A stretch of 59,968 bases of DNA from positions 1-59,968 of the forward strand of contig CALDZJ010000003.1 of the NCBI GenBank assembly GCA_937944055.1, given 5' to 3'. The position numbers and the translations under genes were made by a program. Position 1 is the stretch's first letter; each line of letters opens with the position of its first letter. Source of the stretch: an uncultured Verrucomicrobiales bacterium (lineage in GTDB: Bacteria; Verrucomicrobiota; Verrucomicrobiia; Verrucomicrobiales; Akkermansiaceae). The notes below the pieces were generated by a model. That model ran no database searches. It worked only from the letters and a program-made list of their open reading frames with translations, and had not been told where the DNA came from. Shown piece by piece: positions 39,896-58,610 of this stretch.

Positions 39896-40705
39896 CTACT
39901 TTGTGGCGAGTCCCCTGGCAGCTTTTTGGGATTCGAGGATCTTCTCAAGCGCAGCCTTACTCTGCTCCGCAGCCCAGCCATTATAAGCAGACTGACTGAC
40001 CACTTCCATGAGCCCAGCCATATTGGCGTGGTTCTCACCACAAAGCTGACCACAAACGACACTCGTTTCGAGCTTCTGAATCGGCTTGAACCACATCGGA
40101 ATATCACGCCCCGGGATCGCATCCTGCTGGATACGCATCGGAATGATCGAGTAGTTATGAATCACATCAGTCGAGGTGACCTGCAAGATGGCATTCCGGT
40201 CGACCGGGATCTTCAAAACACTCGTCACGAAGTCATCATAGCCATTGGGATCATCCGGATCGATGCAAGGGTCTCCAGTCGTCTGCACCAAGGTGCGGTC
40301 GATCCGCGCAAACTTCCCATCCTCACCCGGATAGTGATATTTAAAACCAAATTGATAGGCGATCACGCGCACGCGCACCGGATCCGTCTTCTGCACCTCA
40401 TCCCACTGGTCAGTGCGCTCCCACCAAAGCGGAAACGCAAAGCCGAGGAGGAGAACGGCCTCCACAATCACTACGCCGATTTCCATGTGGCTGGAAACGT
40501 GGTTGGTCACCCCGTGGTAACTCGCCTTCGGGTTCTTAGAAGCGCGAAACTTCCAGAGACAGAAAAGGAAGAAAAGCGTCCAGCCCACGAAGAGGGCAAA
40601 CATAAACCAGTGCACAATATCGATCAGGTGATCAACATTGCCGCCGTGGTCTGCGTAGTTCTCGGGAATACCGAGCCATTTTGACCAATTAAGTGCGATA
40701 AACAT
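39896..40705 (-). CDS. coxB: Cytochrome c oxidase subunit II (CuA subunit)
   Basis: A 269-residue protein with two membrane helices (about 29-52, 73-95) and a periplasmic cupredoxin domain. CuA ligands are complete: His in VIHNYSI and the cluster CGQLCGENHANM (two Cys, His, Met). The aromatic electron-entry patch normally just before is IAYQFGFKYHYPG. There is no C-terminal cytochrome c fusion, unlike many caa3 enzymes; separate cytochrome genes in the operon may take that role. It is the last gene of the respiratory operon, unusually far from coxA, with a terminator behind it. Confidence 0.93.
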   Translation of the reverse strand: MFIALNWSKWLGIPENYADHGGNVDHLIDIVHWFMFALFVGWTLFFLFCLWKFRASKNPKASYHGVTNHVSSHMEIGVVIVEAVLLLGFAFPLWWERTDQWDEVQKTDPVRVRVIAYQFGFKYHYPGEDGKFARIDRTLVQTTGDPCIDPDDPNGYDDFVTSVLKIPVDRNAILQVTSTDVIHNYSIIPMRIQQDAIPGRDIPMWFKPIQKLETSVVCGQLCGENHANMAGLMEVVSQSAYNGWAAEQSKAALEKILESQKAARGLATK

Positions 40706-41197: not shown

Positions 41198-41587
41198 TTA
41201 ATCGTGTCCGTGGACGTTACTGGCAGGCTTCTCCGGATTATAAAAACCATCAGCCTTCTCCGAGTTACCATATTGGATCGGGTCACTCTTAGACCAACCG
41301 ATGAGCCACATGCAGAAGAAGGCCATCACGATTCCGAGTCCATAAAAGAAATAGATCAGAGGTTTCTCATGATTCAAGTGCATGAAAATTAACATCACAA
41401 GAGTTGCCTTCACACTCGCAATGATGAGACCCAAGACGGCATCCTTCCCATCAAAGCCGTGCCCCCCGACATCGAGAGCCGGAATCGTAGCAACTGCCAC
41501 TGTCAGGACCGTCCCCACAAGGAGCGCGCCAAAAATGACGAGATAGAGCTTCTTTGCTTTTTTGATTTCTTCAACTGAGTCAGCCAT
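41198..41587 (-). CDS. coxD: Cytochrome c oxidase subunit IV family protein
   Basis: A 129-residue three-helix protein of the bacterial subunit IV (COX4_pro/CyoD-like) family. The middle helix shows the typical VLGLIIASVKATLVMLIFMHLNHE (family hallmark Lys-Ala ... Phe-Met-His-Leu). It stabilises the oxidase rather than binding cofactors. It lies 39 bases after coxC, in the same order as in caa3-type operons. Confidence 0.88.
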   Translation of the reverse strand: MADSVEEIKKAKKLYLVIFGALLVGTVLTVAVATIPALDVGGHGFDGKDAVLGLIIASVKATLVMLIFMHLNHEKPLIYFFYGLGIVMAFFCMWLIGWSKSDPIQYGNSEKADGFYNPEKPASNVHGHD

Positions 41588-41626: not shown

Positions 41627-43387
41627 TTACATTAAGTATAGGATCGGGAAAAGGAAGATCCAAACCAAGTCAACGAAGTGCCAGAAGAGACCGCCCACTT
41701 CCACCCGATTCGCGAGCCACTCCGGATTCGAGTCATACATCTTACGTCCGAAGAAGAGGTAATATCCCAGAACCAAGGCCCCACCAATCACGTGAAGTCC
41801 ATGGAGACCCGTAATGGTAAAGTAAATCGCGTAATACGTATTCCACTTGGGAGTGAAGGTGGAGGTAAAGCCAACGTTCTCACGAGGAATTTCCACATGA
41901 GGAAACTTGTAATTATTATGATTGGCCCCGGCAAAGCCGCTGAGATCAAAGAGTCCACTGCGCTGGAGGCTCCCATCCGCAGAAGCCGCAGCAACGGCTT
42001 CCACGTCGAAATCCAGCTTCTGATAAGCGACCATCTGATCCCAGTTCACGCGGTATTTATCGTTCTCAGTGGGGACGAAGCGATCCTCCCCTTCGAGGCC
42101 CTTTTTGTCACTCATCTCATCGAGCTTCTTGGTCAAATTCGCGAGCCACGCTTGGTGACATTCCCAAGCCTTTTTGAGATCATTTTCACCCTTGCTGTTC
42201 TTATGGGTAAGAACCCAGCTCTGCTTAATCGCCTCGAGTGGGTCGATTCCCTCCTCCTCTGCACGCATCGCAGTGTGGCGGAAGTCGATCGCATCTACTC
42301 CTAGAAGCATCGGACTCGGCTGGAGCTCTCCCTTCACTACGGTATCATCGCGCAGCTTAATCTCAGTCTTCGCTAGCTTCGGAATATCATCAGGATCCCA
42401 GACTAAGGTGAGTGCCGGCTCAATCTTATAAGTGACCGTGCCGGGAGCACTGAGCATGAGCGGCTTGATCTTTTCACTATCCTCAGCCATCCGCTCTTTC
42501 CAGAGATCAGTCGTGATGACGAGGTTACTAATTTCTTCAATTCCCTTCTCATCACGAATCCAAGACCATGAGGCTCGGAGGAATTCTGTCCGAATGCTCT
42601 TATCGTGAGCACGGGCATCGAGGAAGGCTTCTTCCATATCGTCTAAGTCATCGATCGAAAGCTTAGCCCCATCAGCGACGACCAGAGCAGCTTCGCTAGA
42701 TTCCAGTTGCGCCCGGTTCTTCCCCCCAGCGAGGAGTTCCTCGGCATTTGGGACCCGGTAATCACCGATGAGGGTGATTTTATGCTCATCCCCTGCTTGC
42801 GCTAAAATTTCCTTCACATAAGCCTCATGCGCTGGTCGCTTCAGCGCGAAAGTGAGCTCACTGGCTTTGAAGATAATCTTATTAGCAGAGAACACTCCCT
42901 CAGGATTGGCCTTCTTATCTTCCTTTGAGACTTCCACCATCTTGCCGTTCTCGTCCAACTTGGCGTAGTGCACGTGGCCCTCAAGATAAGCGAAATCTTG
43001 CACCGATCCCTCACTAGAAAGGCGCACGCCCTGGTGATGGAACTTCGCGTTATACTCGACGGCTTTGAGACCCAAGAAAAGCACCGCACAGATCAGGGTG
43101 ATCCACATGTAAATTTGGAACTTCCTCCACTCGCGCATTTTCAAAGCAGCCCAAGCGAAGACCACGGTCACGGATGAGCCAATGAGAATGAAGGTGTTAA
43201 TTAATCCGGGCAGGACTGGCAAGGCACGCTCTGGCCAAGGATAGTCAGCATAAAGGCGGAGGAAGAGGTATCCCGAGAAGAGACCCCCGAAGAGGGTCAC
43301 CTCTGAGGCGAGGAAGAGCCAGATTCCGACCTTCGAGTTGAAGAGTCCGGTATCTTTACGGGCGTTGACGATAAATGGAATTTCCAT
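41627..43387 (-). CDS. coxC: Cytochrome c oxidase subunit III with very large insertion
   Basis: A 586-residue protein, although this five-helix type of subunit III is normally about 200. Residues 1-110 hold the first three helices (KVGIWLFLASEVTLFGGLFSGY, LINTFILIGSSVTVVFAWAAL, IYMWITLICAVLFLGLKAVEY). The last 98 hold the final two (YYAIYFTITGLHGLHVIGGA, GGLFWHFVDLVWIFLFPILY). Between them lies about 370 residues of charged soluble sequence with no recognised domain, presumably on one face of the membrane. The frame is unbroken, so it is not a fusion artefact of two genes. The insertion may bind partner proteins of the operon. Confidence 0.93.
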   Translation of the reverse strand: MEIPFIVNARKDTGLFNSKVGIWLFLASEVTLFGGLFSGYLFLRLYADYPWPERALPVLPGLINTFILIGSSVTVVFAWAALKMREWRKFQIYMWITLICAVLFLGLKAVEYNAKFHHQGVRLSSEGSVQDFAYLEGHVHYAKLDENGKMVEVSKEDKKANPEGVFSANKIIFKASELTFALKRPAHEAYVKEILAQAGDEHKITLIGDYRVPNAEELLAGGKNRAQLESSEAALVVADGAKLSIDDLDDMEEAFLDARAHDKSIRTEFLRASWSWIRDEKGIEEISNLVITTDLWKERMAEDSEKIKPLMLSAPGTVTYKIEPALTLVWDPDDIPKLAKTEIKLRDDTVVKGELQPSPMLLGVDAIDFRHTAMRAEEEGIDPLEAIKQSWVLTHKNSKGENDLKKAWECHQAWLANLTKKLDEMSDKKGLEGEDRFVPTENDKYRVNWDQMVAYQKLDFDVEAVAAASADGSLQRSGLFDLSGFAGANHNNYKFPHVEIPRENVGFTSTFTPKWNTYYAIYFTITGLHGLHVIGGALVLGYYLFFGRKMYDSNPEWLANRVEVGGLFWHFVDLVWIFLFPILYLM

Positions 43388-43419: not shown

Positions 43420-45309
43420 CTAGGCTTCAGTCGTTTCCTTTTCGGGCTTTTCCGAAGGTTCCTCGAGAGGGGCAGAACTCTTAGGCTCTTCCCACTGAGG
43501 GAAGAAGTCCTTATCATGGTCAGGGCGACTATACTCGTAAGGCCCGCGATAAACCGCGATATCGAAGGTGAAGTTTCCGTGTCCCGGAGGAGTCGGAGTG
43601 GCCCACTCAAGCGTCGTGGCATCCCAAGGGTTATCACTCGTAACCTTCTTACCCCAGAAGTAGCTGATGATCATATTGAGGAGGAAAGGAATTTGGAAAA
43701 TAGCGAGAGCGATGGCCGCTCCGGTCATGACCTCGTTGAGCGAAATATTATCAGCCACGGTTTGACCGAAGACGTTCACCCCATCAGAGGCTTTCTCAAT
43801 GTAACCCTCACCTCCGTTATACCAACGACGGTGGAAACCTGCCATTCCCTGCGTGAGCATGGGGAAGAAGAGAAGGTTCATGCAGACCAAGGAGGGCCAG
43901 AAGTGCAAGTGACCGAGAAAGTTGTCCATAAAACGCCCCGTCATCTTAGGATACCAATGATACACTCCAGCGAAGAGGCCGAAGAGAATACCGGGCGCCA
44001 CCACATAGTGGAAGTGACCGATCACGTAATAGGTATCGTGAAGGTGAAGGTCCGCGAGGTTGAAGGCGAGCGGAAGGCCAGTCAGACCGCCGATTCCAAA
44101 CATTGGAAGGAAGGCTGCGGCCCAGATCATGGGCATCGTGAAGCGGATCGAGCCACCCCAGAGTGAAATGATCAAAGAGGTGAGTAGAATCACCGAGGGC
44201 ACCGAGATCAGAACGGTGGTGGTTTGGAAGAAGGTCGAGATGACCGGCCCCATTCCGGTAAGATACATGTGGTGAGCCCAAACGATGAAAGAAAGGAAAC
44301 CGAGAACAATGACGCCCCAGACCATCGGCTTATATCCCCAAAGCGGCTTACGAGTGTTACAAGGAATGATCTCAGCAACACAGGCAATCGCCGGAAGAAG
44401 GAGAACATACACCTCAGGGTGACCGAGGAACCAGAAAAGGTGTTGGAAAAGAAGTGGGCTACCAGAACCGGAGAGATCCAAGGCCACATCATCAGCCGCC
44501 GAGTAGAGTCCAGTCGGCATGAAGAAACTCGAGCCGACCATGCGGTCCATCAGCTGCATGATGCCAGCCGCCTCGAGCGGTGGGAAAGCGAGGAGAAGGA
44601 GAAAACCAGTCACCAACATCGCCCAAACGAAGAACGGGAGACGCATCCAAGTGAGGCCTTTAGCACGAAGCTGAATAATGGTGGTGATGAAGTTCACCGA
44701 GCCAAGAAGTGAGGAAGTAATGAGGAGGACCAGACCGATCAGCCACTGCGTTTGTCCCGCGAGGAGCTGATTCACGATTTGTCGATCCGCGTAACCCGCC
44801 AGCGGCGAATAGTTCGTCCAGCCAGACTTTGCCGCGCCGGACTCCATGAAGAAACTCATGCACATCACGATTCCACCAGCGAGATAGACCCAGAAACTGG
44901 CCATGTTGAGCTTCGGGAAGGCCATATCGGGAGCACCGATTTGAAGCGGAGTGACATAGTTACCAAAAGCGGCGAAACCGAGCGGCACCACTCCGAGGAA
45001 AACCATGATCGTTCCGTGCATCGCTCCGAACATGTTATAAGTCTCACCGGTGACCTTTCCGTCATCCAACCAACGGCCCTTCCAGCCGTCTGTGAAGATC
45101 CAGCTTAAATAGCCAGGGAGCGGCTCATGAGGATAAGCGATGCTCCAACGCATCACGATCATTAGAAAGAAGCCGAACAGCAGGAAAGCTCCCGCAGCGA
45201 GGCCATACTGGATTCCGATCGTTTTATGATCTGTGGAGAAGAGATATTTCTTCCAAAATGGAAGCTCGTGATGGTGATCGTGGGAGTCCGCACTCATGGT
45301 CTTTGTCAA
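43420..45309 (-). CDS. coxA: Cytochrome c oxidase subunit I (aa3/caa3 type)
   Basis: A 629-residue, twelve-helix heme-copper oxygen reductase subunit. CuB and heme ligands are intact: WFLGHPEVYVLLLPA with the His and cross-linked Tyr, AHHMYLTGM with the His pair, and HDTYYVIGHFHYVVAPG for the two hemes. The N-terminal STDHKTIGIQYG is the usual start of type A subunits. A His-rich head (SADSHDHHHE) precedes it; translation could begin at 45309 or at the second Met (45297). This is the only subunit I of the operon with an intact active site. Confidence 0.95.
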   Translation of the reverse strand: MTKTMSADSHDHHHELPFWKKYLFSTDHKTIGIQYGLAAGAFLLFGFFLMIVMRWSIAYPHEPLPGYLSWIFTDGWKGRWLDDGKVTGETYNMFGAMHGTIMVFLGVVPLGFAAFGNYVTPLQIGAPDMAFPKLNMASFWVYLAGGIVMCMSFFMESGAAKSGWTNYSPLAGYADRQIVNQLLAGQTQWLIGLVLLITSSLLGSVNFITTIIQLRAKGLTWMRLPFFVWAMLVTGFLLLLAFPPLEAAGIMQLMDRMVGSSFFMPTGLYSAADDVALDLSGSGSPLLFQHLFWFLGHPEVYVLLLPAIACVAEIIPCNTRKPLWGYKPMVWGVIVLGFLSFIVWAHHMYLTGMGPVISTFFQTTTVLISVPSVILLTSLIISLWGGSIRFTMPMIWAAAFLPMFGIGGLTGLPLAFNLADLHLHDTYYVIGHFHYVVAPGILFGLFAGVYHWYPKMTGRFMDNFLGHLHFWPSLVCMNLLFFPMLTQGMAGFHRRWYNGGEGYIEKASDGVNVFGQTVADNISLNEVMTGAAIALAIFQIPFLLNMIISYFWGKKVTSDNPWDATTLEWATPTPPGHGNFTFDIAVYRGPYEYSRPDHDKDFFPQWEEPKSSAPLEEPSEKPEKETTEA

Positions 45310-45324: not shown

Positions 45325-46095
45325 TTATTCGGCAGCTGGGATGGGCTCCCAAGTTTCTGGATCGAGAAGGGTATCTGGAGCTAAATTGTCACCGGGAAGC
45401 ATTTTGTCGTGATTTTTCTTCAACTCTTCTGCGGTGGTCGGCATTCCACCACGTGCCTTAGAAATCTTGAGCGCCTCTTCTGCCATTTCAGGAGTCACGA
45501 GGCTCGCATTATTCCCCCACGAGGTGCGGATGTAGGTCATGACTGCCGCCAACTCCTTAGGGCCGAAGTTGGCTCCAATCGCTGCCATATTTCCGTTATA
45601 GGTCGTTCCCGCCACTTCGATGGGGCCGCCCACTCCATTATGAATAATCATGGCCAACTTTTCGGTGTTTCCGGTGACCCACTCGGAGCCTGCAAGAGGT
45701 GGGAACTCGCCCCCGCCCATCCCGCTTGACTGGTGGCAGGAGGCACAGGCCGCGTATTGTTTTTGCCCCTCTTTTTGGAGAAGTGCGAGAGCTGGAATAG
45801 GCTGAAGTGGCACTTCTTCTTTGACCGGAGATTTTCCGCGGACGTATCCATCCTTCACCAATTCATTGTATCCGAAGAAAGATCCGCCCTGCCCCATCAC
45901 GGCACCGCCAACAAGGACGACGATTCCAGAGACTAAAATGAGCCAAAGAGAGACCGCTTCCATGCCATTTTCACGGAGCGATTTCTCGCGCCCGACGGCT
46001 GGGGGAGCATCTTTAATTGCAGCGTGAGCTTCCGAGACATTGATGGTCTCGTTGAGATCGGGTCGCAAGTCGTGCTTAGATTCAGAAGTCGCCAT
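45325..46095 (-). CDS. Membrane-anchored mono-heme cytochrome c
   Basis: A 256-residue protein with a cytoplasmic N-terminus of about 45 residues, one helix (AVSLWLILVSGIVVLVGGAVMG) and a periplasmic cytochrome c domain. Heme site CASCH, axial Met probably in NGNMAAIGANFG, C-terminal helix LAAVMTYIRTSWGN. The position after the CcoO-like gene suggests the CcoP place of a cbb3 operon, but it has one heme and a different helix arrangement. It probably shuttles electrons to coxB. It resembles the cytochrome domain of the 22456-24036 protein. Confidence 0.82.
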   Translation of the reverse strand: MATSESKHDLRPDLNETINVSEAHAAIKDAPPAVGREKSLRENGMEAVSLWLILVSGIVVLVGGAVMGQGGSFFGYNELVKDGYVRGKSPVKEEVPLQPIPALALLQKEGQKQYAACASCHQSSGMGGGEFPPLAGSEWVTGNTEKLAMIIHNGVGGPIEVAGTTYNGNMAAIGANFGPKELAAVMTYIRTSWGNNASLVTPEMAEEALKISKARGGMPTTAEELKKNHDKMLPGDNLAPDTLLDPETWEPIPAAE

Positions 46096-46099
46096 GAAC

Positions 46100-46834
46100 T
46101 TATTCTACTACGGTAGCCTGGGGATTATGATTGAGGATCTCGGGCAAGGGTTGGCCGAGAGTGTCCTTTTTGAGTGAAATCAGATAGCTGGCCAACTGGC
46201 GGGCGCGATCCTTCGGGCGAACGCCCTTTCCTTCTTCAGTGTCTACGGCGAGGAATCCCCCGCCCGCTCCGTTAAGAGCGACCAGCTCGAAGAGGCTCGT
46301 CTTAGAAGGACAGCTCGATCGCTCTGGAAGATCCTGCGAACCCACGCGGTAATTGCGGACTCCACGAGGATTGTAAAGATGCTGGAGCACCCAGTCCTCC
46401 GGAGTGAGCTCGCTTCCTTTTAAATTTTGCTCCAAACGGCGTCCGAGGTTTGCCAAATCTGGGCCGACACGACTCTGACCAAGGTGTGCTACTTTCTCAC
46501 CCTCGAAGTCCATCGCAAGAGTCTCGCGGCGAGTGTCAGCATTGTCCGCAGTCTTACGGAGGCCTGCCCATTCATCACGGAAAACGTCGTTTCCAGCATA
46601 AGTGGGACGGATCAGCTGAGTGTGACATTGATAGCAACCCTCTTGACCGTAAATGATCGAGCCCTCCGTGACACGCCCATCGCGCTTTGGAATGAAGACC
46701 CCAGAGACAGCCGCCCCTTCTTCATACTTAATTGGCTCCAGCGAGCGCATCTTGGAAAACGGAAGCACGACGGCTACGAGCCAAGGAAAGCCAAAGCTAG
46801 CGAGCAAGCCGAAGATAAATGCTTTAAAAGTCAT
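46100..46834 (-). CDS. ccoO: CcoO-like (cbb3 subunit II) mono-heme cytochrome, probable Met-to-Cys axial change
   Basis: A 244-residue protein with one N-terminal helix and a periplasmic cytochrome domain. Family marks are GSIIYGQEGCYQCHTQLIRP (heme site CYQCH at 67-71) and GQSRVGPDLANLGRR. In the family the distal Met comes after HLYxPR in a S-x-M-P context. Here the corresponding stretch RNYRVGSQDLPERSSCPSKT has no Met and Cys175 falls at that place. The protein has a Glu/Asp-rich C-terminus. It is encoded directly after the CcoN-like gene, the normal cbb3 order, but that partner has lost its active site. Confidence 0.82.
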   Translation of the reverse strand: MTFKAFIFGLLASFGFPWLVAVVLPFSKMRSLEPIKYEEGAAVSGVFIPKRDGRVTEGSIIYGQEGCYQCHTQLIRPTYAGNDVFRDEWAGLRKTADNADTRRETLAMDFEGEKVAHLGQSRVGPDLANLGRRLEQNLKGSELTPEDWVLQHLYNPRGVRNYRVGSQDLPERSSCPSKTSLFELVALNGAGGGFLAVDTEEGKGVRPKDRARQLASYLISLKKDTLGQPLPEILNHNPQATVVE

Positions 46835-46858: not shown

Positions 46859-48346
46859 TTAAGCAGAAGCGGATCCGATGTTGTCAATTTCCCCCTCGGG
46901 GCCGTGCGGACTCTCCGCATGGTGACCCTTGAGAAGGGTGGGATGAGAAGAGCGACGCCCCAAGCGGGCCCACATCAAAAGAAGGTGAAGACAGAAGAAA
47001 AGATTCGCGAATAAGAGGAAGGCCCAAGCGAGTGTCACTCCCCAACCATACTGGCTAGCGCGCTCCGCCATCGTTGCGAAAGGCTGAGCGACGTCTTCGA
47101 TCCCCTGCCCTTGCGTGACCCCACCCACCACGGCACAAATCACGATGGAAGCGACGCCATAAAGTGAGAGAAAGAAGTGCCACGAAATGAAGCGACGGGA
47201 CAGCCACTCACGACGCGTGATGCGGGGAACAATGAAGTAAATCGCTCCGAAGGCACATAGGGAAAACACTCCGTAGAGGCCGAGGATATCTAAACCGTAT
47301 CCTGAGTAGCTGAACTGAGTCATCTTCATCGCGGGCACCGTGTGAAGGACAAAGGAGAGCACTCCGTAGGCTACGAAAAGAACGACCCCGCTGCTGGTGA
47401 AGCGCAGCGATGGACTTTCGGCAACGATCTCACCATGCCCGTAAACTGTTTGGAGAATGTTAATCCCGACCGAAATAGCGGGGATCAATATCAAGACCAT
47501 GGCGGCTGCTCCAGCATAAGGAAGGAACTGTGGGATCGGAGCTCCGAAGAGCTTCTGCATCCCCGCCCAAGGACCAAGGAAGGCTAAGGCCCAAAAGCCA
47601 AAGAGTGCCAGATTGTAGCTGTAAACCGGACGGCCCGTCACCTTTGGCGCGAGGTAGTAAGCGCTCGCTAAAGCAGTCGGCAAGAAGAACAGCAGGAAGA
47701 GCGCACTCTTAAACCAAGCGGCAATCGCGGAAGCCATGACAGGATGACCATCGAAAACAAAAACGAAGAGAAAAGCGGTGACCGCGATCCACGGGAACCA
47801 AAGAAGCCCAGCGAGGAGATACCATTGACTCACGTAAACATGACCGGCATCGCGAACCTGAAACTGCACAAGCGACCAAATGGTAATGGCCAAGTAGCAA
47901 AGAATCAAAAGCGGCCAAATGAAACCGGGAAACTCCATGTAGGCGATCCCAGAGCCATTTCCGGTCAAAATACACACGAGGCCGATGAAAACGAAAAGGT
48001 TCCAAAGATGGCCAACCGCGAGAATCGTGCCGGCATTGGTGCATTCCTTGCGAGAAAGGCGAGCCATGAGCCAGATGATGATTCCAAAGGCCGCTTGTGC
48101 GCCCCAACCATAGATGAGAGCGCTCATGTGAGCCCCATCTACCCGCCCAGCATCAAGAAAGGAAAAACAGCTCAAGAACTCAGGGGAATGCTTCTTCGCA
48201 GAAGCCACCAGCCCGAGGACGATCGCGAGTGCGAGCCAAACGGCTCCGCTTGTGAAGAAAAACATCACTGGGTGACGCAGTGAGCGATCGATCGAAGCAC
48301 GCAAAGCGACGTCGTTTGATTCAGCAGTGGAAGTGGTCTCAGCCAT
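46859..48346 (-). CDS. CcoN-like subunit lacking the heme-copper active site
   Basis: A 495-residue, about twelve-helix protein that aligns without gaps to cbb3 CcoN through RPVYSYNLALFGFWALAF (239-256), but the cofactor ligands are gone. Measured from the shared RPVYSY motif, CcoN His207 (WYGHNA) is Ser214 here (WFKSA), Tyr251 is Gly258, and the CuB pair His257-His258 (WAGPHH) is Gln264-Lys265 (WAGMQK). The two-heme motif GHVH is GLYG (356-359). Only the CcoN His60 equivalent remains (His73 in DGAHMSALIYGWG). The frame is open and hydrophobicity is kept, so it is a conserved non-catalytic subunit rather than a pseudogene. The comparison sequence is recalled from memory. Confidence 0.85.
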   Translation of the reverse strand: MAETTSTAESNDVALRASIDRSLRHPVMFFFTSGAVWLALAIVLGLVASAKKHSPEFLSCFSFLDAGRVDGAHMSALIYGWGAQAAFGIIIWLMARLSRKECTNAGTILAVGHLWNLFVFIGLVCILTGNGSGIAYMEFPGFIWPLLILCYLAITIWSLVQFQVRDAGHVYVSQWYLLAGLLWFPWIAVTAFLFVFVFDGHPVMASAIAAWFKSALFLLFFLPTALASAYYLAPKVTGRPVYSYNLALFGFWALAFLGPWAGMQKLFGAPIPQFLPYAGAAAMVLILIPAISVGINILQTVYGHGEIVAESPSLRFTSSGVVLFVAYGVLSFVLHTVPAMKMTQFSYSGYGLDILGLYGVFSLCAFGAIYFIVPRITRREWLSRRFISWHFFLSLYGVASIVICAVVGGVTQGQGIEDVAQPFATMAERASQYGWGVTLAWAFLLFANLFFCLHLLLMWARLGRRSSHPTLLKGHHAESPHGPEGEIDNIGSASA

Positions 48347-48378: not shown

Positions 48379-48711
48379 TTACTCGGAAGCGGGTTCAGGT
48401 TCTGCTGGTGCCTTCGCAGCCGGCTTTGGGACGGCCACTTTACCAGGAGTGGGTTTGGAAGCGATCAGCGAGGCGGCGCTCGCCTGAAAGGCCTCGTCTA
48501 AAGCATCTTGATTTAAATTTTTATCCTGAGCGTTATCGACCTCAGCACGCAGCGCGCGGCGATCCTCAGCGGCTGCTTCCATCGCGGAATCAACTCGCGC
48601 ATGAGTAATCGGACGGAGAATGATGCAAGCGATGCCAAAGGCAGTCACAAGAAGGAGGGCCACCCAGAAGGCGGTGAATCGCTTGAGAGGATTGTCGCGA
48701 GTGTGATCCAT
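48379..48711 (-). CDS. Small single-helix membrane protein of the act/cco operon
   Basis: A 110-residue protein with one helix (FTAFWVALLLVTAFGIACIIL) near the N-terminus, an acidic helix (AMEAAAEDRRALRAEVDNAQ) and a Pro/Ala/Lys-rich tail. It lies 5 bases after actF. It may take the place of the small ActG subunit of Alternative Complex III, or join the CcoN-like module that follows; the sequence does not decide. Confidence 0.6.
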   Translation of the reverse strand: MDHTRDNPLKRFTAFWVALLLVTAFGIACIILRPITHARVDSAMEAAAEDRRALRAEVDNAQDKNLNQDALDEAFQASAASLIASKPTPGKVAVPKPAAKAPAEPEPASE

Positions 48712-48716
48712 GACGT

Positions 48717-50042
48717 TTAGTTATGAAGGTTAGCGGACTCGAGGATGCGAGGATCGCGGTGAGGATAAAGGGCTGCCGAGGTGAGGTTGCGCAGGTAGAA
48801 GAAAAGGAAGCCGGAAACGGCGATGACGAGAGCAAGAATATCTCCCACCCAAGATCCACCGAGCCAGAGCTGTGGAACATGATCCACCACGAGACCAACC
48901 GAAGGCCCACGCTCAGGAATGATCATATGGTAAACATCAACCACATGCATAAAGAGAATGTAGCAGCAGAGGCCGATCATGAACTTCTGATTCTTCTTCA
49001 CGTCTGAGCGAAGGAGCGCAAGGAACGGAAGCGCAAAGTGCATGAAGACGAGCGAAAGACTGACAAGATTCCAGTTCTCAGTGTTCCGCAGGAGGAAGTA
49101 ACGAGTCTCCTCCGTGATATTGGCATACCAGATGAGGAAGAATTGAGAGAAAGAAACATAAGCCCAGAAAACGGTGAAGGCGAAGCAGAGCTTACCCATG
49201 ATGTGGTAGTGCTCTTGGGTGACGACATTTTTCAAGTAACCCGCACGCTGGAGGAAAATTCCGGTAAGGATGAGAACCGCCATCGAGTTGAGGGCCGATC
49301 CCGCGAAGATGTAAACTCCGAACATGGTGGAGAACCATGAGAAATCGAGAGCCATCACGAGATCGAGCGCGAGGAAAGTCAAAGTGACGCCAAAGACAAT
49401 CATACTCCAAGAAGAATGCTTACGAGCGGCGAAGAGATTATCAGTGCCGGGATTATTGTCAGTGTCCTGCGCGATTGAGAACTTACGGACCAGCCAGATG
49501 AAGAACCCAAGGCCGATGAAATAGGTGAAGAAACGAGCAAGCCAGAAACCGGGATTGAGGTAAAAGACCTTGGCAGCGAGGAGGTGATCGTGAGTATTAC
49601 TACTGTGGAATAAGGCATCCTTCGCACTCATTTCTGGGTGGGCCTTTACCGCGGCATCGTAAGAGGTCATCCACTCCCAGAGATACTGCTGCACTCCGGG
49701 GAAAAGGAAGGGAATGCAGAAGATGAAAAGAAAAGGAAAGACGAAGCCGAGATTCTCCATCATCCGGCGAACTGAGGTCCCCCACCCTGAGTTGGAAAGG
49801 TTATGAAGGAAGGTCCAAAAGCAACCGCCGAGCGCGAGAGTCAGGATAAAGAAGACGGCAAAGAGCCATGAGAAAGCGTAGGAACCATGCGCGCTACCAC
49901 TTCCCACAAGAAGATAAATGATGCTCGCAAGGAGACCAACCCCACCGATGATGCCGGAGAGAAACTGAATTTTCGCAATTTTGCTTTTTTCCAGATGCTC
50001 CCCGTTACTTGGGATGTCTTTTGATGTCACTTGATGTGCCAT
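48717..50042 (-). CDS. actF: Alternative Complex III subunit ActF
   Basis: A 441-residue, ten-helix integral membrane protein. Features typical of ActF are a first helix pair with LSGIIGGVGLLASIIYLLVG, the loop GGCFWTFLHNLSNSGWGTSVRR, and the later helices with FWAYVSFSQFFLIWYANITEE. ActF is a smaller relative of the NrfD-like ActC that lacks a quinol site in known structures. It is 28 bases after actE and co-oriented with the rest. Confidence 0.92.
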   Translation of the reverse strand: MAHQVTSKDIPSNGEHLEKSKIAKIQFLSGIIGGVGLLASIIYLLVGSGSAHGSYAFSWLFAVFFILTLALGGCFWTFLHNLSNSGWGTSVRRMMENLGFVFPFLFIFCIPFLFPGVQQYLWEWMTSYDAAVKAHPEMSAKDALFHSSNTHDHLLAAKVFYLNPGFWLARFFTYFIGLGFFIWLVRKFSIAQDTDNNPGTDNLFAARKHSSWSMIVFGVTLTFLALDLVMALDFSWFSTMFGVYIFAGSALNSMAVLILTGIFLQRAGYLKNVVTQEHYHIMGKLCFAFTVFWAYVSFSQFFLIWYANITEETRYFLLRNTENWNLVSLSLVFMHFALPFLALLRSDVKKNQKFMIGLCCYILFMHVVDVYHMIIPERGPSVGLVVDHVPQLWLGGSWVGDILALVIAVSGFLFFYLRNLTSAALYPHRDPRILESANLHN

Positions 50043-50069: not shown

Positions 50070-50696
50070 TTATTTGGCAGAAGCCTGAAGAGCGCGAAGG
50101 TAAGCCACAATGGCCCAGCGGTCGCGCACGGGAATGTTGTGCTTATAGGCACCCATGCTGCCCTTACCATTCGTAATGATGTCATAGATGAGACCATCCG
50201 GATGGGTTGCGGGGAGAGTCGTTAAAAGAGTGGGCACCGTAATGATGGGATCAGCTTTCGCGAAGTAGGCAGCGACGACGCCTTTGCCATTCCCAGATTT
50301 GCCGTGGCAGATCGCGCAGTGGACATTGAACATGTCTTTTCCGCGAGCAAGGAGGCCGACAGAGTCCGACTCATTCTCGAGGCCAAGCTCCTCGGGCATT
50401 CCATTTCCGAACGAGCCGCTGAGCTTCCCATCGAAGTAATATCCAGCCCGACCAACTCCAAATTCAAGTGGCATGACACCACTATCGGCATTCTTAGGAA
50501 CGGTGCCTAGAACCGGACGGCGGGAGCCCATTCCATCGGCGAAGAAACTATTCGCGGACTGAGCCTTCACCTTATCTTGGTGATCCATATCGGGGAACAC
50601 CTCAATAGGCGCCTTCGAGAACTTATCACCACGGAAGCCGAAGACACCGACGACGAGGACGGCAAGGGCGATGAGAGTGAGGAAAAAATATTTCAT
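50070..50696 (-). CDS. actE: Alternative Complex III mono-heme cytochrome ActE
   Basis: A 208-residue protein with an N-terminal hydrophobic anchor or signal (FLTLIALAVLVVGVFGF) and a cytochrome c domain with heme site HCAICHG and probable axial Met in GKGSMGAYKHNI. The segment FPDMDHQDKVKAQ is typical of ActE. The subunit passes electrons from ActA/ActB hemes and clusters towards the oxidase. It lies 3 bases after actD. Confidence 0.92.
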   Translation of the reverse strand: MKYFFLTLIALAVLVVGVFGFRGDKFSKAPIEVFPDMDHQDKVKAQSANSFFADGMGSRRPVLGTVPKNADSGVMPLEFGVGRAGYYFDGKLSGSFGNGMPEELGLENESDSVGLLARGKDMFNVHCAICHGKSGNGKGVVAAYFAKADPIITVPTLLTTLPATHPDGLIYDIITNGKGSMGAYKHNIPVRDRWAIVAYLRALQASAK

Positions 50697-50699
50697 GGT

Positions 50700-51257
50700 T
50701 TACTCAGAGTCGTCCTCCACAAGTTCGATGTTATCCCCGCCGATTTCATCGAGGAGTGATTTAGTCGCTTCGGCCGAGAACTTCGCGTCGCGTGCCTCGA
50801 TCGCGATGAAGAACTTATCGTCCGTCACGCGGGAGAATTGCTTACTCGCAAAAATCGGGTGGTTCCAACGAGGCAGTCCCATCAGCGCTAGCAATCCGAA
50901 GAGAACTGTGAAGCCCGAGAAAAGAATGGTGAGCTCAAACATCACCGGGAAGAAAGCCGCGGTGGTGAAAATGTTCGCGGGTTTGCCTTGCACGATCGTT
51001 GGGTAAAGACCGACCTGCGTGGTGTAAGCGAGAGTGATCGCAGTCAAAAAACCCGTCACTCCACCAATGAAGACGAAGTAAGGAAGAATGGAGCGTTTAA
51101 TCCCCATCGCATCATCAAGACCGTGGATCGGATACGGTGAGTAGCAATCCCACTTCTTAAATCCGGCATCGCGGACCTTCTCGGCAGCTTTATAGAGCTG
51201 CGAAGCATTTTTAAATTCGGCTAAGTAGCCGTAAACTCTGCGGACCTTCGTGCTCAT
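50700..51257 (-). CDS. actD: Alternative Complex III subunit ActD (DUF3341)
   Basis: A 185-residue protein with a soluble N-terminal part ([20 protein letters not shown], a family hallmark), two helices ([40 protein letters not shown]) and a soluble C-terminus with [20 protein letters not shown]. ActD has no cofactor and stabilises the membrane arm. It overlaps actC by ATGA. Confidence 0.93.
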
Positions 51258-52786
51258 GCCTTTTCCGTCTTAGGGGTTGCTTCCTCAAGGCCAGCCTCCT
51301 TGGCGGCACCTTCAGGGTTTTCGTGAATTTCGTATTGGTAGGCCTCGATCAACTCGATGCCATCGTCAGGATGTGCTTTCTTATCCTCATCGTGAGCATC
51401 GCTCTCTTTGAGGGTCCATTTCACCTCAGCAATGTTGATGCAGGGTAAGAAGCGGAGGAAGAGGAGGAAGAGGGCAAGGAACATGCCGATCGTTCCGACA
51501 AAGGTCAGAACATCCACCCCACTCGGGCTGTAAGTTTTCCAATCACCAGGGAGCCACATGCGGGCCAAGGTGGTGACAATGATCACGAAGCGCTCGAACC
51601 ACATTCCGATGTTCACACACATCGCGACGGCCATCACGACCCAGAGGTTTTCACGCATCTTCTTGAACCAGAAGATCTGCGGAGAAAGAACGTTGCAGCC
51701 CATCATGGCGTAGTAAGCCCACCAATAGGGCCCATCGATCCGGAAGAGGAAGGCCGCGCCCTCATACTTCGCACCCGAGTAGAAGGCGATAAAGAGCTCC
51801 ATCAAGTATGCATATCCCACGATCGTTCCGGTCAAGAGGATGATCTTGGCCATGTTATCGATGTGCTTCATCGTGATCATGTCGTGCAGACCGTAAAGGG
51901 CCCGCGCAGGAATCATGATGGTGAGAACCATGGCGAAACCACCGAAGATCGCGCCCGCCACAAAGTAAGGTGGGAAGATCGTGGTGTGCCATCCGGGAAC
52001 CACGGAGGTGGCGAAGTCAAAAGAAACCACCGAGTGCACCGAAAGCACGAGCGGAGTCGAAAGCGCAGCGAGAAGAAGGTAAGCCATCTCGTAGTGACTC
52101 CATTGGCGATTACCGCCACGCCAGCCGAGGGCAAAAATGCCATACATAAACTTCCGGATGCCAGGCTTACAACGATCACGAATCGTCGCGAGGTCAGGAA
52201 CCATTCCGAGGAACCAGAAGATGAGAGAAACGGTGAAGTAGGTCGAAACCGCGAAGACGTCCCAAAGGAGTGGCGACTTGAAGTTTTGCCAGATCGCGTT
52301 TGAGTTCGGGATCGGCGCGAGGAACCAAGCCATCCAAACTCGACCCACGTGGAAGGCGGGGAAAATACCCGCGCACATCACCGCGAAGATCGTCATGGCT
52401 TCGGCCGCTCGGTTAATCGAGGTCCGCCAGTTCTGGCGCGTGAGGAAAAGAATCGCAGAAATGAGCGTTCCAGCGTGGCCAATACCAATCCAGAAAACGA
52501 AGTTCACGATGGGCCATCCCCACATCACGCGGTTCGTGTTTCCCCAGACTCCGACACCGGTCGAAACGAGGTAGGTCAGTCCCCCCACCACACCCACGAG
52601 GGCGATAATTGCGGAAGGAATGAAGAGGATCCACCAGAGGAAAGGCTGACGCCCTTCAACCACCCCGCAAATACGCTCGGTGATCCAGTGGTAGGAACGG
52701 TTATTGAGAATCAACTTCTCGCGCTCAAGCACGGGAATTTTCACCCTTGAAGAGGCGTTCTCAGACTGTGTGGTCGCTTCGGACAT
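51254..52786 (-). CDS. actC: Alternative Complex III quinol-oxidising subunit ActC (NrfD-like)
   Basis: A 510-residue, ten-helix NrfD/PsrC-family protein. It is the quinol-oxidising subunit, with the quinol site at the periplasmic face of the first four-helix bundle. Marks include [24 protein letters not shown] spread over helix 2, [16 protein letters not shown], and [20 protein letters not shown]. The N- and C-termini are soluble and charged. Co-oriented between actB and actD, with 21 bases to actB. Confidence 0.93.
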
Positions 52787-52807: not shown

Positions 52808-55800
52808 TTAGTGAATGTTGATGGTGGCCTGTCCGAGGTATTTGGAATCAGGCATGTCAGGATTCGGATTCTTCACACGGGCGAGGTAGCTCGTGCGCGG
52901 ACGGGTATTGATATACTGGAGGAGATCGTAGTTGCGCGGGCTGCCCGGCACTTCTTCGTAGTCATCTCCTTTGATGATTTTGACGGAGTCGAGAACATTG
53001 CCTTTGGCGCGGACCACCTTCGAGTCGTTCTCGAGGAGGTTACCGAAGGAAATGGCGCTCGTCGGACAGGCGTCCTGACAGGCCGTTTTGACACTGTCTT
53101 TCTTAACGCGAAGGTCTGCAATGCGGTCGACTTTGACCTCGTAAGACTTCTTACCTGACGAGTAGGTATTGACCTTCACTTGCTGCTTCTGCTTGATCTT
53201 AGCGGACTCAAGACGCTGCACGCAGTAGGTGCATTTCTCCATGACTCCGCGCATCCGCACCGTGACGTTCGGGTTGCGCTGGAGTGAAGGGGCCTCGCCC
53301 ACCTGCTTCTCGCCAAGGGGACCTTTGTAAAGATTGCCCTTAATGAGTGGGTTGCGCTTGTTGTAGTCGAAGAAATTGAAGCGGCGTGCCTTGTAGGGGC
53401 AGTTGTTCGCGCAGTAACGAGTTCCGATGCAGCGGTTGTAAGCCATCGAGTTGAGGCCTTCCTCGGTGTGAACGGTCGCGTTGACCGGACAAACGGTTTC
53501 GCAAGGAGCCATTTCGCATTGCACACAAGCAACAGGCTGGGGAATGGACTCAGGATTCTGAGTGACCCAAGCGGGGTTCTCGATCTTGTTGCCAGACTCG
53601 TCTTTCACCTTATGGCCACCCTCGTATTTATACTCTTGGGAAGCAAAGTAGCGGTCCATGCGGATCCAGTGCATCTCGCGGCCCATCGCAACTTGGTCCT
53701 TGCCGACAACGGGGATGTTGTTCTCAGCCTGACAGGCGACGAGACACGCATTACACCCGGTGCAGGTGTTGAGATCGATCGCCATGCCCCACTGGTGGAC
53801 TTCGTCAGCGAGGTGAGTCTTGGCAGCAAGCTCAGTCTTCGACCAATTGTCACTGCCCTCGGGCTTATAAAGAGAAATGTTAGGAGGAGCATGGGAATCC
53901 ATCCCCTGCTTTTTAACCTTCTTCTTCTGCTCAGCGAAGGTCCCCTTTCCTTTCAAGGTATCTGTCGAAATCTCGCGAGCAATCGCACGACCATACATCG
54001 AGTTGTGCTCTTGCGTAAGAGCGACAGGGTAATCTTCATCGGTGGTCTCAATCTTTGCACCCGTGGCAAAGTAAGGAGTTTCTAAAGTGCGGAGATGGTA
54101 AGCATTGAAGCCGGTATTTTTACCAACGTGCCCCACCGCAGGAGTCTTTTGATCGAAGGCGACGGAGCCCGCACGCTCATCATCGGCCGCTTGACCGTAA
54201 CCCACTGGAAGAGTGATGGCATTGTCGGCGTGACCGTAAGCAATGAGAACTGGAACCTTAAGCTCACGTTCATTCACCTTAAGGAGGATCATTGGTGAAT
54301 GATTCCCCTCCCCTTCTCCGGTTTCGTAGCGCTTAGAAACTTTTACCTTTCCGCCGACTTTCATCAGCGGAGTGTTTGGCTCGAGGGAAACAACGCGCTC
54401 GTAGATCCCCAGGTCTTTTGCGGTTTGAGGAGAAATTTGGGCTGCATTGTCCCAAGTCAGCTTCGTGATGGGATCGGGCGATTCCTGAAGCCAAGCGTTA
54501 TCGATGAAGCGGCCGTCAAGAATGGATGCATCGGTAGCGAAAACGACTTCGAGGTTTTCGATGCTTGGAGCTGGGCTTGCGGTGAAGGTCGGAGAACCGG
54601 CATCGAGTTGTCCCGCGGAGTATGAGGTGTCAGCTGCGAAGCCTTCCATCAAAGCCACACGCCATGATTCATCGTCAGATTTTCCAGTGATCTCAGCGAA
54701 GGTTGTTTTGACCTCGCCCATTGCAGGGAAGAATTCCCCTTTTGCGAAATTACCGCCCCCGAGGACGTGGAGGAAATCAATCTCCGTAATGCCACCGTAA
54801 AGCGGCAAGATAAGAGGCTGGATAAGAGAAAGAACCCCAGTCTCACTGCGCGCATCGCTCCAGCTTTCGAGGTAGTGTGCCGCGGGAACATGCCAATCAC
54901 AGGCCCATGAAGTGGCATCATTACGCAGCCCCCAGTGAATGGAGACCTCGGCCTTATCGAGCGCAGCGGCGAAGCCATCCGCATCGAAGACTGGATTCGA
55001 AGGCGTCATGAAGATGACATTTTTAACCTCGCCGCTTTCGAGCTTCGCAGTGAGATCAGCGAGCGATCCATATTGCCCAAGATCAGTCTTGACCGGCTTA
55101 ATCGCGGTCGATTTCAACTTCGCGTTAATGGCAGCCGCGAATTGCTTCACTTCCTTGCTCTGGCGAGAACCAGCGAGGACGAGCGCATTGGCTCCAGCCT
55201 TTTCGAGATCGGCTTTGCAAGCCTCGACCCACTCCTTGAAAGTCTTGGCAGCGTCATCGGCACCTGGGAAGAAGGCTTCCTTATCTTCAGCAGAAGCATC
55301 TGCTCCCCCTAGTCCAAAAGCTTGCGCGATCGCTGCTGCAACAACCGCAACCCGGCTTGGAGCAACTCGCAAACGGTGATCCGCAAGACCACCGGTGAGG
55401 CTGAACTGAGTCTCGACCTGATAGAGGCGGTTCATCTTGTCCGCATCGACGTCGTCCTTCTGGTCATACTCGGCATTGCCGCCCTGACGCTTCTTCGAAT
55501 ACTCGCGGCTATTGCCAACGGGATCGGTCGAGAGGAAATCGCAGTCCAAAGACAGGATACGGGATGCCTTAGAAAAATCGACTAAGTGAGAGATGCCTTT
55601 TTGAAGAGGCTCACCAGAAACGGCTTCGTAAGAAATCAAAGTGGCACCTTTACCAGCGAGACCCTTTGCGAGGCGATTGCGAGTGGGTGAATCATCTTCA
55701 CCAAAAACCAGCGCGGTCTTGGAAAGATCGAGAGCGGCCAGCGCCTCCTTGAGCTCGCTTTGGGTAGCCTCTTTGCCAGCCTTAAGAATCTTTTGAGAAC

Positions 55801-56263
55801 GTGAAGGCGAGTAGAGATCCAGTACCGAGGCCTGAGTCTGCGCGCAAGTTCCAGCGGAATCAGGATGATCTGGATTGGGCTCCAATTTGGTAGGACGCCC
55901 CTCGTGAGTGGTCACCACGAGAGGAACGGCACCGCCAGCCACAGGACGAGTGCTCGCGTAGAAAAGAGGCTTCCCGGGAATGATCCATTCCGGTGCCTTC
56001 TTATAAGGGACGATATAACTCTCTGGACGGCGGCAAGAAACTAAGCCCAAGCCCGCCAAAGCAGTCGAAGCTCCCATGAGCTTCGTAAAATTACGGCGCG
56101 AGACTCCTTGCTCTTCCTCGGTCAAGGCATCCCCCTGCGGGAACTCTCGCTCAAGAACATTACGGAAGCTTTTGGAGCCTTCTTTTTCTCCCACACTACG
56201 CCAAGCAGTGGTGGCTTCTTCTCCGCTAGGAGTGACGGGTGGATTCCAGACGCGTTTGCTCAT
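52808..56263 (-). CDS. actB: Alternative Complex III subunit ActB (Mo-fold plus iron-sulfur)
   Basis: An 1151-residue protein. The N-terminus carries a Tat-like signal (SRRNFTKLMGASTALAGLGL, twin Arg at 56-57) running into a lipobox-like LVSC (Cys77), so it may be a lipid-anchored exported subunit. Residues up to about 800 are the molybdopterin-oxidoreductase-like fold that in known ActB lacks the cofactor. The C-terminal part binds iron-sulfur clusters: CTGCNACLVACQ near 830, CVQCEMAPCETVCP near 910, CIGTRYCANNCPYKARRFN near 940, CTYCVQ near 1010 and CQDACP near 1060. It accepts electrons from ActC-side quinol oxidation. Confidence 0.95.
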   Translation of the reverse strand: MSKRVWNPPVTPSGEEATTAWRSVGEKEGSKSFRNVLEREFPQGDALTEEEQGVSRRNFTKLMGASTALAGLGLVSCRRPESYIVPYKKAPEWIIPGKPLFYASTRPVAGGAVPLVVTTHEGRPTKLEPNPDHPDSAGTCAQTQASVLDLYSPSRSQKILKAGKEATQSELKEALAALDLSKTALVFGEDDSPTRNRLAKGLAGKGATLISYEAVSGEPLQKGISHLVDFSKASRILSLDCDFLSTDPVGNSREYSKKRQGGNAEYDQKDDVDADKMNRLYQVETQFSLTGGLADHRLRVAPSRVAVVAAAIAQAFGLGGADASAEDKEAFFPGADDAAKTFKEWVEACKADLEKAGANALVLAGSRQSKEVKQFAAAINAKLKSTAIKPVKTDLGQYGSLADLTAKLESGEVKNVIFMTPSNPVFDADGFAAALDKAEVSIHWGLRNDATSWACDWHVPAAHYLESWSDARSETGVLSLIQPLILPLYGGITEIDFLHVLGGGNFAKGEFFPAMGEVKTTFAEITGKSDDESWRVALMEGFAADTSYSAGQLDAGSPTFTASPAPSIENLEVVFATDASILDGRFIDNAWLQESPDPITKLTWDNAAQISPQTAKDLGIYERVVSLEPNTPLMKVGGKVKVSKRYETGEGEGNHSPMILLKVNERELKVPVLIAYGHADNAITLPVGYGQAADDERAGSVAFDQKTPAVGHVGKNTGFNAYHLRTLETPYFATGAKIETTDEDYPVALTQEHNSMYGRAIAREISTDTLKGKGTFAEQKKKVKKQGMDSHAPPNISLYKPEGSDNWSKTELAAKTHLADEVHQWGMAIDLNTCTGCNACLVACQAENNIPVVGKDQVAMGREMHWIRMDRYFASQEYKYEGGHKVKDESGNKIENPAWVTQNPESIPQPVACVQCEMAPCETVCPVNATVHTEEGLNSMAYNRCIGTRYCANNCPYKARRFNFFDYNKRNPLIKGNLYKGPLGEKQVGEAPSLQRNPNVTVRMRGVMEKCTYCVQRLESAKIKQKQQVKVNTYSSGKKSYEVKVDRIADLRVKKDSVKTACQDACPTSAISFGNLLENDSKVVRAKGNVLDSVKIIKGDDYEEVPGSPRNYDLLQYINTRPRTSYLARVKNPNPDMPDSKYLGQATINIH

Positions 56264-56278
56264 CTTAGACAGGTAAAA

Positions 56279-57040
56279 TTAACGGTGACAAGTCGCACAG
56301 GACTCTTTGGGTTGAACACCCCAGTGGGCGCGGAGGAACTTTCCAAACTGCTCAGGCTCAGTGATCTGCTCACCTTTCCCAACGATTAGCCCCTCGCTGT
56401 CAATGACAGCATTCTCTTTCAAATACTCAATCGGATCGTAGTCCAAATTATAGACCTCCTCGAGAGGACGAAGGTGCTTTTCAGGAGCACGGTGGCAATC
56501 GAGACACCAGCCCATGGAGTGGCTCTCCGCATGGTGGACCTTTTCCATATTTTGCACGTCACCGTGGCAACTGATGCAGGAAATTCCGCGGTTCAAGTGA
56601 GCGGAGTGGTTAAAATAGACATAATCAGGCGCCTTGTGTACCCGCACCCACTGAATCGGCTCACCTTTCAGGAGATTCCCCGCCGAGTCCTTGAGCGGGA
56701 CATGATTCTCATCGACCGCCATCGCCGAGCGTAGCCCAGCCAACTTTGGAGAACCCTTCTTCACATGCTCGTGACAATTCCAACACGTATTCGCAGAAGG
56801 AACATTCGCATGGCCAGAATGCTCTACAAAGCTATGACAATAGCGACAATCCATCCCATTCTGCCCCACGTGGATACTATGGTCGAAGTGAATAGGCTGA
56901 GTCGGCTGATAACCCACTCGCTGAGCCTCGGGCGTTGCGTAGTAAGTGATACCAGCCACTACGCCAGCACCAAGTGCACCAAGACAAACCGCTACTTTCA
57001 GCGGCAGTAAGTTTGTCCAACGGGGAAAAAAGTTTGCCAT
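56279..57040 (-). CDS. actA: Alternative Complex III penta-heme cytochrome ActA
   Basis: A 253-residue protein with one N-terminal helix (LKVAVCLGALGAGVVAGITY) and five c-type heme sites in order: CRYCH, CWNCH, CISCH, CLDCH and CATCH, the last at the very C-terminus. Extra His residues (FDHSIHVGQNGMD, YFNHSAHLNRG) supply the distal ligands. This is the ActA signature. It is the first gene of the respiratory operon, and two Rex-type palindromes lie 22-64 bases before its ATG. Confidence 0.95.
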   Translation of the reverse strand: MANFFPRWTNLLPLKVAVCLGALGAGVVAGITYYATPEAQRVGYQPTQPIHFDHSIHVGQNGMDCRYCHSFVEHSGHANVPSANTCWNCHEHVKKGSPKLAGLRSAMAVDENHVPLKDSAGNLLKGEPIQWVRVHKAPDYVYFNHSAHLNRGISCISCHGDVQNMEKVHHAESHSMGWCLDCHRAPEKHLRPLEEVYNLDYDPIEYLKENAVIDSEGLIVGKGEQITEPEQFGKFLRAHWGVQPKESCATCHR

Positions 57041-58350: not shown

Positions 58351-58610
58351 CAGCCCTTGCTAGCGCCTAGCCTCAGAGCAAGCAAGAAAAACCCAAAAGC
58401 CCCAAAAGCCCCAAAGTCACGACACAGAGCCACAACACTTCAAGCCCACTGCCCAACTCTCAAGGGGGTCACTCCACGCTCTCCGAACACCAACGCACGA
58501 GCGGAGGCGCGATGTCTGTCGGGAGGAAGCGACCGCAGACAGCGTGCCGCAGATAGAATGAGAAGGTAGTTGAGGCCGTGCCAGCGGTCTGTGGTAATCC
58601 TGCTCGTCTT
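58351..58610 (+). mobile_element. Non-coding left flank of the IS110 element, probable bridge-RNA region
   Basis: 260 bases without a gene before the transposase. It begins with a CCCCAAAAG-type short repeat (about 58391-58415). Nearer the transposase it can fold: ACCGCAGAC (58532-58540) pairs with GTCTGTGGT (58587-58595), and TGTCTG near 58514 can pair with CAGACA near 58536. In IS110-group elements the non-coding left end encodes the bridge RNA that selects donor and target. The left boundary of the element is not determined. Confidence 0.45.
58542..58554 (+). repeat. 13-base direct repeat, left copy flanking IS110 transposase
   Basis: GCGTGCCGCAGAT occurs here and at 59760-59772. Fourteen bases before this copy is AGCGACCGC (58528-58536), also found before the right copy (59738-59746). 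Confidence 0.7.

Follow-up and report, generated by a model that had tools for sequence, protein, structure and literature searches.

The window, meaning the whole 59,968-nucleotide stretch of DNA analyzed here, comes from an uncultured Verrucomicrobiales bacterium and carries an operon in which genes for Alternative Complex III (ACIII) precede genes for oxidase-type proteins. All of these genes lie on the minus strand, in the order ActA-ActB-ActC-ActD-ActE-ActF, a 110-aa open reading frame (ORF), CcoN-like, CcoO-like, CcoP-like, CoxA, CoxC, CoxD, and CoxB. The act portion begins with an ActA-like cytochrome (56279..57040), whose five CxxCH motifs were read from the sequence. It continues with the large iron–sulfur subunit ActB (52808..56263), assigned from its 4Fe-4S domains and operon position; the NrfD-like quinol subunit ActC (51254..52786; PDB 6f0k_C, E 1.9e-178); ActD (50700..51257; PF11821, E 4.2e-60); an ActE-like mono-heme cytochrome c (50070..50696), assigned from cytochrome c domains and position; and ActF of ACIII (48717..50042; PDB 6f0k_F, E 3.3e-53, and 6btm_F, E 6.7e-35). 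The 110-aa ORF between ActF and the CcoN-like gene (48379..48711) matches no Pfam or NCBIfam family. Near the operon start lies an ORF (58578-59672) that we take to resemble an IS110-type transposase.

The distal end of the operon encodes an aa3-type oxidase. Specifically, CoxA, or subunit I (43420..45309), displays the ligand motifs HPEVY, HH, and HFH, read directly. CoxD, or subunit IV (41198..41587), matches COX4_pro. CoxB, or subunit II (39896..40705), consists of a COX2 domain only, with a CuA-like CGQLCGENHANM and no CxxCH, again read directly. CoxC, or subunit III (41627..43387), matches COX3 in two pieces, the domain being interrupted by an insert of ~370 aa. Across the window's order, the gap between the pieces is repeatedly ~236-432 aa, with 117 in L065; it is at most 64 in L109, L111, L175, L193, L194, and L213 and 559 in L107.

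Between these two sets of genes lies the gene of principal interest (46859..48346, minus strand), a 495-aa ORF with an ATG start that encodes a homolog of the C-type oxidase subunit CcoN. Alignment of the protein with eight intact CcoNO fusions from relatives reveals that, of seven ligands, only His73, a low-spin heme b His, is left. The CuB ligands are absent: Ser214 stands in place of one CuB His, and Gln264 and Lys265 replace the CuB His-His pair. Gly258 occupies the position of the cross-link Tyr, L352 that of the heme b3 His, and I354 that of the TM10 low-spin heme His. The first-pass annotation of this DNA had reported the same residues at the CuB and Tyr positions and the retention of His73, and the alignment agrees on each. 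It was also right that the GHVH motif is lost, but GLYG, which it gave as the aligned partner, lies slightly further on; GHVH aligns to GLDI (351-354). Its placement of the gene between ActF and a true coxA, with ccoO adjacent, is confirmed, the 110-aa ORF intervening after ActF. Hereafter, we call family members that have lost ligands dead and those with all seven live. Misalignment was considered as the cause of the missing ligands and rejected: the key regions contain few single-residue gaps only, and live members show the full pattern.

Despite its missing ligands, the window protein is a recognizable CcoN. Pfam assigns it to COX1 (E 1.5e-36), and a sequence search of the PDB finds five CcoN sequences (E 1.8e-22 to 1.9e-18), all of them ordinary CcoN chains. 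Its NCBIfam ccoN score of 104 bits lies below the cut-off of 583, as do the scores of the two live ACIII-linked members tested (220 and 241 bits). An AlphaFold2 model built from an alignment of 67 sequences (pLDDT 86.6, pTM 0.88) predicts that the oxidase body is kept. In Foldseek, the best seven PDB matches of the model are all CcoN chains (E 2.4e-20 to 6.7e-19; TM 0.82-0.90, target-normalised 0.87-0.90; 20-22% identity), followed by nitric oxide reductases and A- and B-type oxidases. Thus, of the features of a C-type oxidase subunit I, the protein has the CcoN fold and does not have the three CuB His, the heme b3 His, the Tyr, or both heme b His. The genome (92% complete) contains two COX1 matches, coxA and the dead CcoN.

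The CcoN family is widespread among relatives of the window. When the window's own genome was surveyed along with those of 57 relatives, 55 of the 58 gave a match, although in G011 and G039 it is only a weak one of the ordinary CcoNO kind; one set of relatives comprises the best 80 of 176. Of 288 genomes sampled from the phylum, the CcoN profile (threshold E 1e-60) matches 89 and ActC matches 102, of which 66 belong to the window's class, 14 to genus code g3, and 22 to other classes. The g3 matches are ActC-like at 42-49% identity, are likely another NrfD paralogue, and were left out of the 66. ActC matches fall into two pieces near residue 210 in G163, G174, G189 (one piece listed), G213, G227, and G255, a pattern that suggests a short lineage-specific insertion. 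The ACIII-linked CcoN family is carried by 65 of the 66 class genomes with ActC and by no further class genome. One class genome with ACIII, G064 (family code f8; L215), has act genes followed by CoxC-CoxD-CoxB, and CcoN, CcoO, CcoP, and CoxA were not found in the locus stretch examined.

Both dead and live forms occur in the class. Of the 65 genomes, 44 are dead and 21 have all seven ligands. In this sample, family codes f1, f4, f8, f10, f13, f15, and f19 have only dead copies and f14, f16, f17, and f18 only live ones, and two are mixed (f9, 16 dead and 7 live; f7, 2 dead and 5 live); among the live f14 matches, two show one TGA. The Tyr and the second CuB His are gone in all 44 dead class genomes, and in the ligand alignment of named loci the second CuB His is still present in some, for example L083. 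L027 and L052, which are incomplete sequences, were left unscored, and L124, whose contig is split, was assigned to the dead group on the basis of five of the seven sites. The ligands are intact at L105, a planctomycete-labelled locus that may be a mis-binned contig.

Within the window's order, no ACIII-linked member is live. Among 98 distinct members, the ordinary fusions L121-L123 being excluded, 7 keep none of the seven ligands, 75 keep one, 14 keep two, 2 keep three, and none keeps all seven. L120, L130, L131, and L135 retain the first CuB His and up to three of seven ligands; by their residues, these are partly decayed active sites. The same or related genomes also encode CcoN paralogues that fall outside the ACIII-linked group; 17 of 17 full-length ones have all seven ligands, and the paralogue fragment L144 keeps six, all that its sequence covers. 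Because 0 of 98 ACIII-linked members in the order are intact while 17 of 17 paralogues are, the loss of ligands is not a matter of chance.

Dead CcoN has constant partners in its operon. Linkage was counted only for loci with enough flank (> 2.5 kb upstream for ActF), and some organisms may have been reached by two routes. ActF lies directly upstream of CcoN in 99/99 dead loci and in 19/23 live loci (the four others are L108, L200, L203, and L204), and CcoO adjoins dead CcoN in 106/109 loci. Dead CcoN thus has the gene linkage to ActABCDEF that marks a component of ACIII. CoxA, by comparison, occurs within 4.5 kb in 68/90 dead loci versus 4/18 live loci, a difference carried by the window's order. 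On the Act tree, no association between ligand loss and coxA in the operon emerges: CoxA differs in only about one of the nine independent pairs that differ in state, equally often either way, a comparison of little power. CoxA is missing from this interval in the other 22/90 dead loci, and the first-pass proposal that the protein joins ACIII to the aa3/caa3 oxidase does not hold as a general role. Because dead CcoN is regularly accompanied by ACIII and by the two cytochromes, and not by aa3, we favor a scaffold, attached to ACIII, for CcoO and CcoP.

A related idea is that dead CcoN serves ACIII in assembly, in a proton path, or in membrane stability, and is not a docking site for cytochromes. 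The strict linkage to ActF would suit such a part, as would the pattern of conservation. Specifically, in a count over 28 live and 116 dead members (those with profile scores < 300, L194 and L213 among them, were left out), 134 positions are at least 95% conserved in the live form. About half of these, 69, are kept by at least 80% of the dead members; the 65 lost ones take in the Tyr and every ligand except His73, those for CuB and b3 and the one in TM10. Cytochrome holding, however, better fits the presence of CcoO, with its heme motif kept, beside nearly all dead CcoN genes, and we regard the assembly or stability role as unlikely, if the most credible of the alternatives.

His73 raises a different issue. 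It is kept in 91/98 members of the window's order, which need not be so in a purely passive scaffold. It could still touch a heme, and the cofactor-free state that the first-pass annotation proposed would be our expectation, not an observation. One could imagine that His73, together with a second ligand that has escaped recognition, still lets dead CcoN hold a single low-spin heme b, with which it would pass electrons between the heme of CcoO and a further site. L169/L182 (G069) and L218 (G221), of family code f10, and L142 retain both low-spin heme b His with no CuB or b3 His, a combination that the relay would accommodate; these members are possible intermediates, going by their ligand patterns. 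Yet most members of the window's order have Ile, Val, Leu, or Met at the TM10 position, His73 is Phe in 7/98 members there, and only 19 of the 44 dead class genomes keep it, 25 having lost it. We consider a heme b relay distinctly improbable and return to the ACIII-attached scaffold, whose predicted cargo is the pair of cytochromes encoded next to it.

In the window, the CcoO-like protein (46100..46834, minus strand) is a mono-heme cytochrome c with the motif CYQCH that matches FixO (E 5.9e-08). Its AlphaFold2 model (pLDDT 84.2) has two PDB matches below E 0.001, both CcoO chains (3mk7_B and 9g6b_B). The CcoP-like cytochrome c (45325..46095, minus strand) matches Cytochrom_C (E 4.4e-11) and, weakly, ccoP. 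Canonical CcoP carries two hemes; the window's partner has one CxxCH, and no dead locus has a CcoP with two. The CxxCH motif is kept in all 115 distinct CcoO-type and all 149 CcoP-type sequences of dead loci. The distal ligand of CcoO is another matter. The intact motif is S-x-M-P, and the window CcoO, a heme c partner by its CxxCH, reads SSCPS, with Cys in place of the distal Met. The Met is present in 8/8 true fusions and in 26/29 live sequences (2 gaps, 1 Phe). In dead loci of the window's order (n=95), the position is Cys in 74, Met in 15, Ser in 3, Ala in 1, and a gap in 2; in dead loci outside the order (n=20), it is Met in 17, Ser, Arg, and His in 1 each, and never Cys. These residues suggest His/Cys ligation of heme c in the CcoO of the window's order. 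Replacing Met with Cys at a heme's distal ligand should lower the heme potential, and the Cys sits uneasily with a simple high-potential wire. The change could also make a ligand-switching heme, and dead CcoN might then be a sensor or regulator of ACIII that responds to gas or redox state. Nothing in the analysis points to regulation, though, and with the Met kept in most dead CcoO sequences outside the window's order, we give the sensor idea little credence. For the scaffold, the relevant observation is that heme c motifs persist where the catalytic ligands do not; a neighbouring CcoO alone is no evidence of an oxidase.

How often catalysis was lost depends on the tree consulted. A quick Act tree (ActB+ActC+ActF; 66 loci, 1489 columns), under four rootings, requires 11 state changes, or 12 losses if its ancestor is taken to be live. 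The tree of CcoN itself groups most dead rows and needs a minimum of 3 changes; in it, long branches may attract each other. Taken over both trees, the estimated number of losses ranges from 3 to 12. AU tests on the ActB+C+F tree, on groups named after the tree was seen, reject a single dead origin (p 1.5e-47, with L124, at that stage without a score, placed on the live side), the 14 dead loci of one half as one clade (p 5.6e-44), and the smaller dead clades L184+L189 (p 0.009) and L185+L190 (p 5e-05). On the Act tree, dead L184 is sister to live L178 (ActC 92% identical, CcoN 61%) and dead L185 to live L106 (ActC 90%, CcoN 46%), and L186/L197 are dead beside live L176, L177, and L179. By these identities, L184 and L185 are cases of recent loss beside a live sister. 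Moreover, L184 CcoN shares 61% identity with live L157 and no more than 42% with any dead CcoN; the corresponding values are 46% (live) versus 38% (dead) for L185 and 55% versus 43% for L169. Because each is nearer to live CcoN than to any dead one, a separate loss is clearly supported for all three by sequence comparison. L189, L190, L192, and L196 lie at much the same distance from live and from dead CcoN, and L193 and L187 lie closer to dead CcoN. The first-pass annotation had called for a tree of homologues; working from the sequence alone, it could not know that some close relatives linked to ACIII are intact or that the loss happened more than once.

Dead CcoN nevertheless remains under purifying selection. 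In 11 of 12 dead-dead pairs, those for which it is computable, CcoN dN/dS is 0.025-0.335, and ActF in the 11 pairs having it gives 0.029-0.225; both sets of values are rough, with many dS > 1. The first-pass annotation had described the frame as intact, had proposed a check for purifying selection, and had named scattered frameshifts and relaxed selection in homologues as marks of a pseudogene: the 495-aa ORF is open, the listed ACIII-linked dead matches have no internal stop (a few, such as G016 and G029, are cut by contig ends), and constraint persists. A decaying pseudogene, for which one could cite the faster divergence of CcoN where it is dead, as between L185 and L106, is thus ruled out by open frames, dN/dS, and conservation across the whole order.

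We consider it probable, with some reserve, that dead CcoN is a heme-copper oxidase pseudoenzyme, a non-catalytic subunit of ACIII that anchors CcoO and CcoP. A non-catalytic, conserved scaffold or docking subunit within an ACIII/oxidase operon, as the first-pass annotation put it, remains the simplest reading. The notion is that dead CcoN goes back to a C-type (cbb3-like) oxidase whose catalytic subunit it once was, and which was encoded with ACIII and probably attached to it, in the order ActABCDEF-CcoN-CcoO-CcoP that is still intact in many Verrucomicrobiota. With other oxidases able to reduce oxygen, CcoN could have shed the residues that bind CuB, heme b3, and heme b. Its body of twelve helices would still hold the cytochromes CcoO and CcoP against ACIII, and for that reason the protein would have been retained, now as a passive part of the complex. 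Quinol electrons would leave ActC/ActB through the ActA and ActE hemes for these tethered c-type cytochromes and pass from them to the aa3 oxidase (in the window, to the CuA of CoxB) or to a soluble carrier. Another COX1 match is indeed present in 20/20 dead genomes checked. A second oxidase does not by itself explain the loss, because 9/10 live genomes checked have another COX1 as well; in G058, the live ACIII-linked CcoN is the only one, in keeping with a live ancestor. Counting against this account are the CcoN tree with its 3 changes only, the ACIII of G064 without CcoN, CcoO, and CcoP, and the dead loci that have no CoxA.

If this reading is correct, a heme-copper oxidase subunit has been kept as a protein part without its chemistry, and this loss of catalysis with retention of the protein has recurred many times. 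The structural and catalytic roles of CcoN would then be separable, intermediates would be available for study, and an ACIII-CcoNOP supercomplex would be predicted in Verrucomicrobiota. More broadly, we lean slightly toward the view that, in this phylum, the C-type core is a near-obligate structural subunit of ACIII whose catalysis was lost independently ten or more times, and that the methanotroph "cbb3 oxidase" is one such case and reduces no oxygen. That would call into question published counts of oxygen-reducing enzymes in verrucomicrobial methanotrophs, and similar genes may be miscounted as oxygen reductases.

The methanotrophs offer a close known parallel. Several papers on verrucomicrobial methanotrophs report that a cbb3 oxidase is encoded next to ACIII (PMC6688271, PMC8498564), that aa3 and cbb3 oxidase genes adjoin the ACIII cluster in Methylacidiphilum caldifontis IT6 (PMC11102522), or that a cbb3 type is present (PMC10205796, PMC8170126). 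The same order as in PMC6688271, PMC8498564, and PMC11102522, with act genes, CcoN-CcoO-CcoP, and then aa3, is found here in L193, L194, L213, and L227. In G127 (L227; outside the linkage counts), nosZ, nosL, and nosD lie between the act genes and CcoN, which is followed by CcoO, CcoP, and CoxA, an arrangement like that given for strain IT6 in PMC11102522; ActF of G127 was assigned by place and size only. We infer that our f8 genomes correspond to the methanotroph strains named in print. In contrast to those reports, CcoN here is without ligands in all five pmoA-bearing genomes; pmoA-type genes are present in 5/5 f8 genomes tested for them, which are all those of f8 but G064, the sixth. Three of the five match COX1 weakly (49-72 bits). 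The CcoN protein of L227, the one protein so tested, has no Pfam COX1 or NCBIfam ccoN match at E 0.001, and its CcoO matches FixO. In the open-licence PMC literature, we found no description of a ligand-less CcoN beside ACIII.

Two further systems frame the window's arrangement. The CcoN of the Pseudomonas stutzeri cbb3 oxidase (3mk7) is like the window protein in its fold and its CcoO neighbour. Unlike 3mk7, the window protein has no ligand for CuB, for heme b3, or at the second heme b position, and no cross-link Tyr; its CcoP-like partner has one heme motif, and its gene is linked to ACIII. According to PMC8552683, ACIII from Rhodothermus marinus and from Flavobacterium johnsoniae was isolated together with caa3/aa3. 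It is alike in ActA to ActF, and the window too encodes an aa3 oxidase after its act genes. For those complexes, the same paper names six subunits, ActA-F, and no CcoN-type subunit, whereas the window carries a CcoN-CcoO-CcoP block between ActF and coxA.
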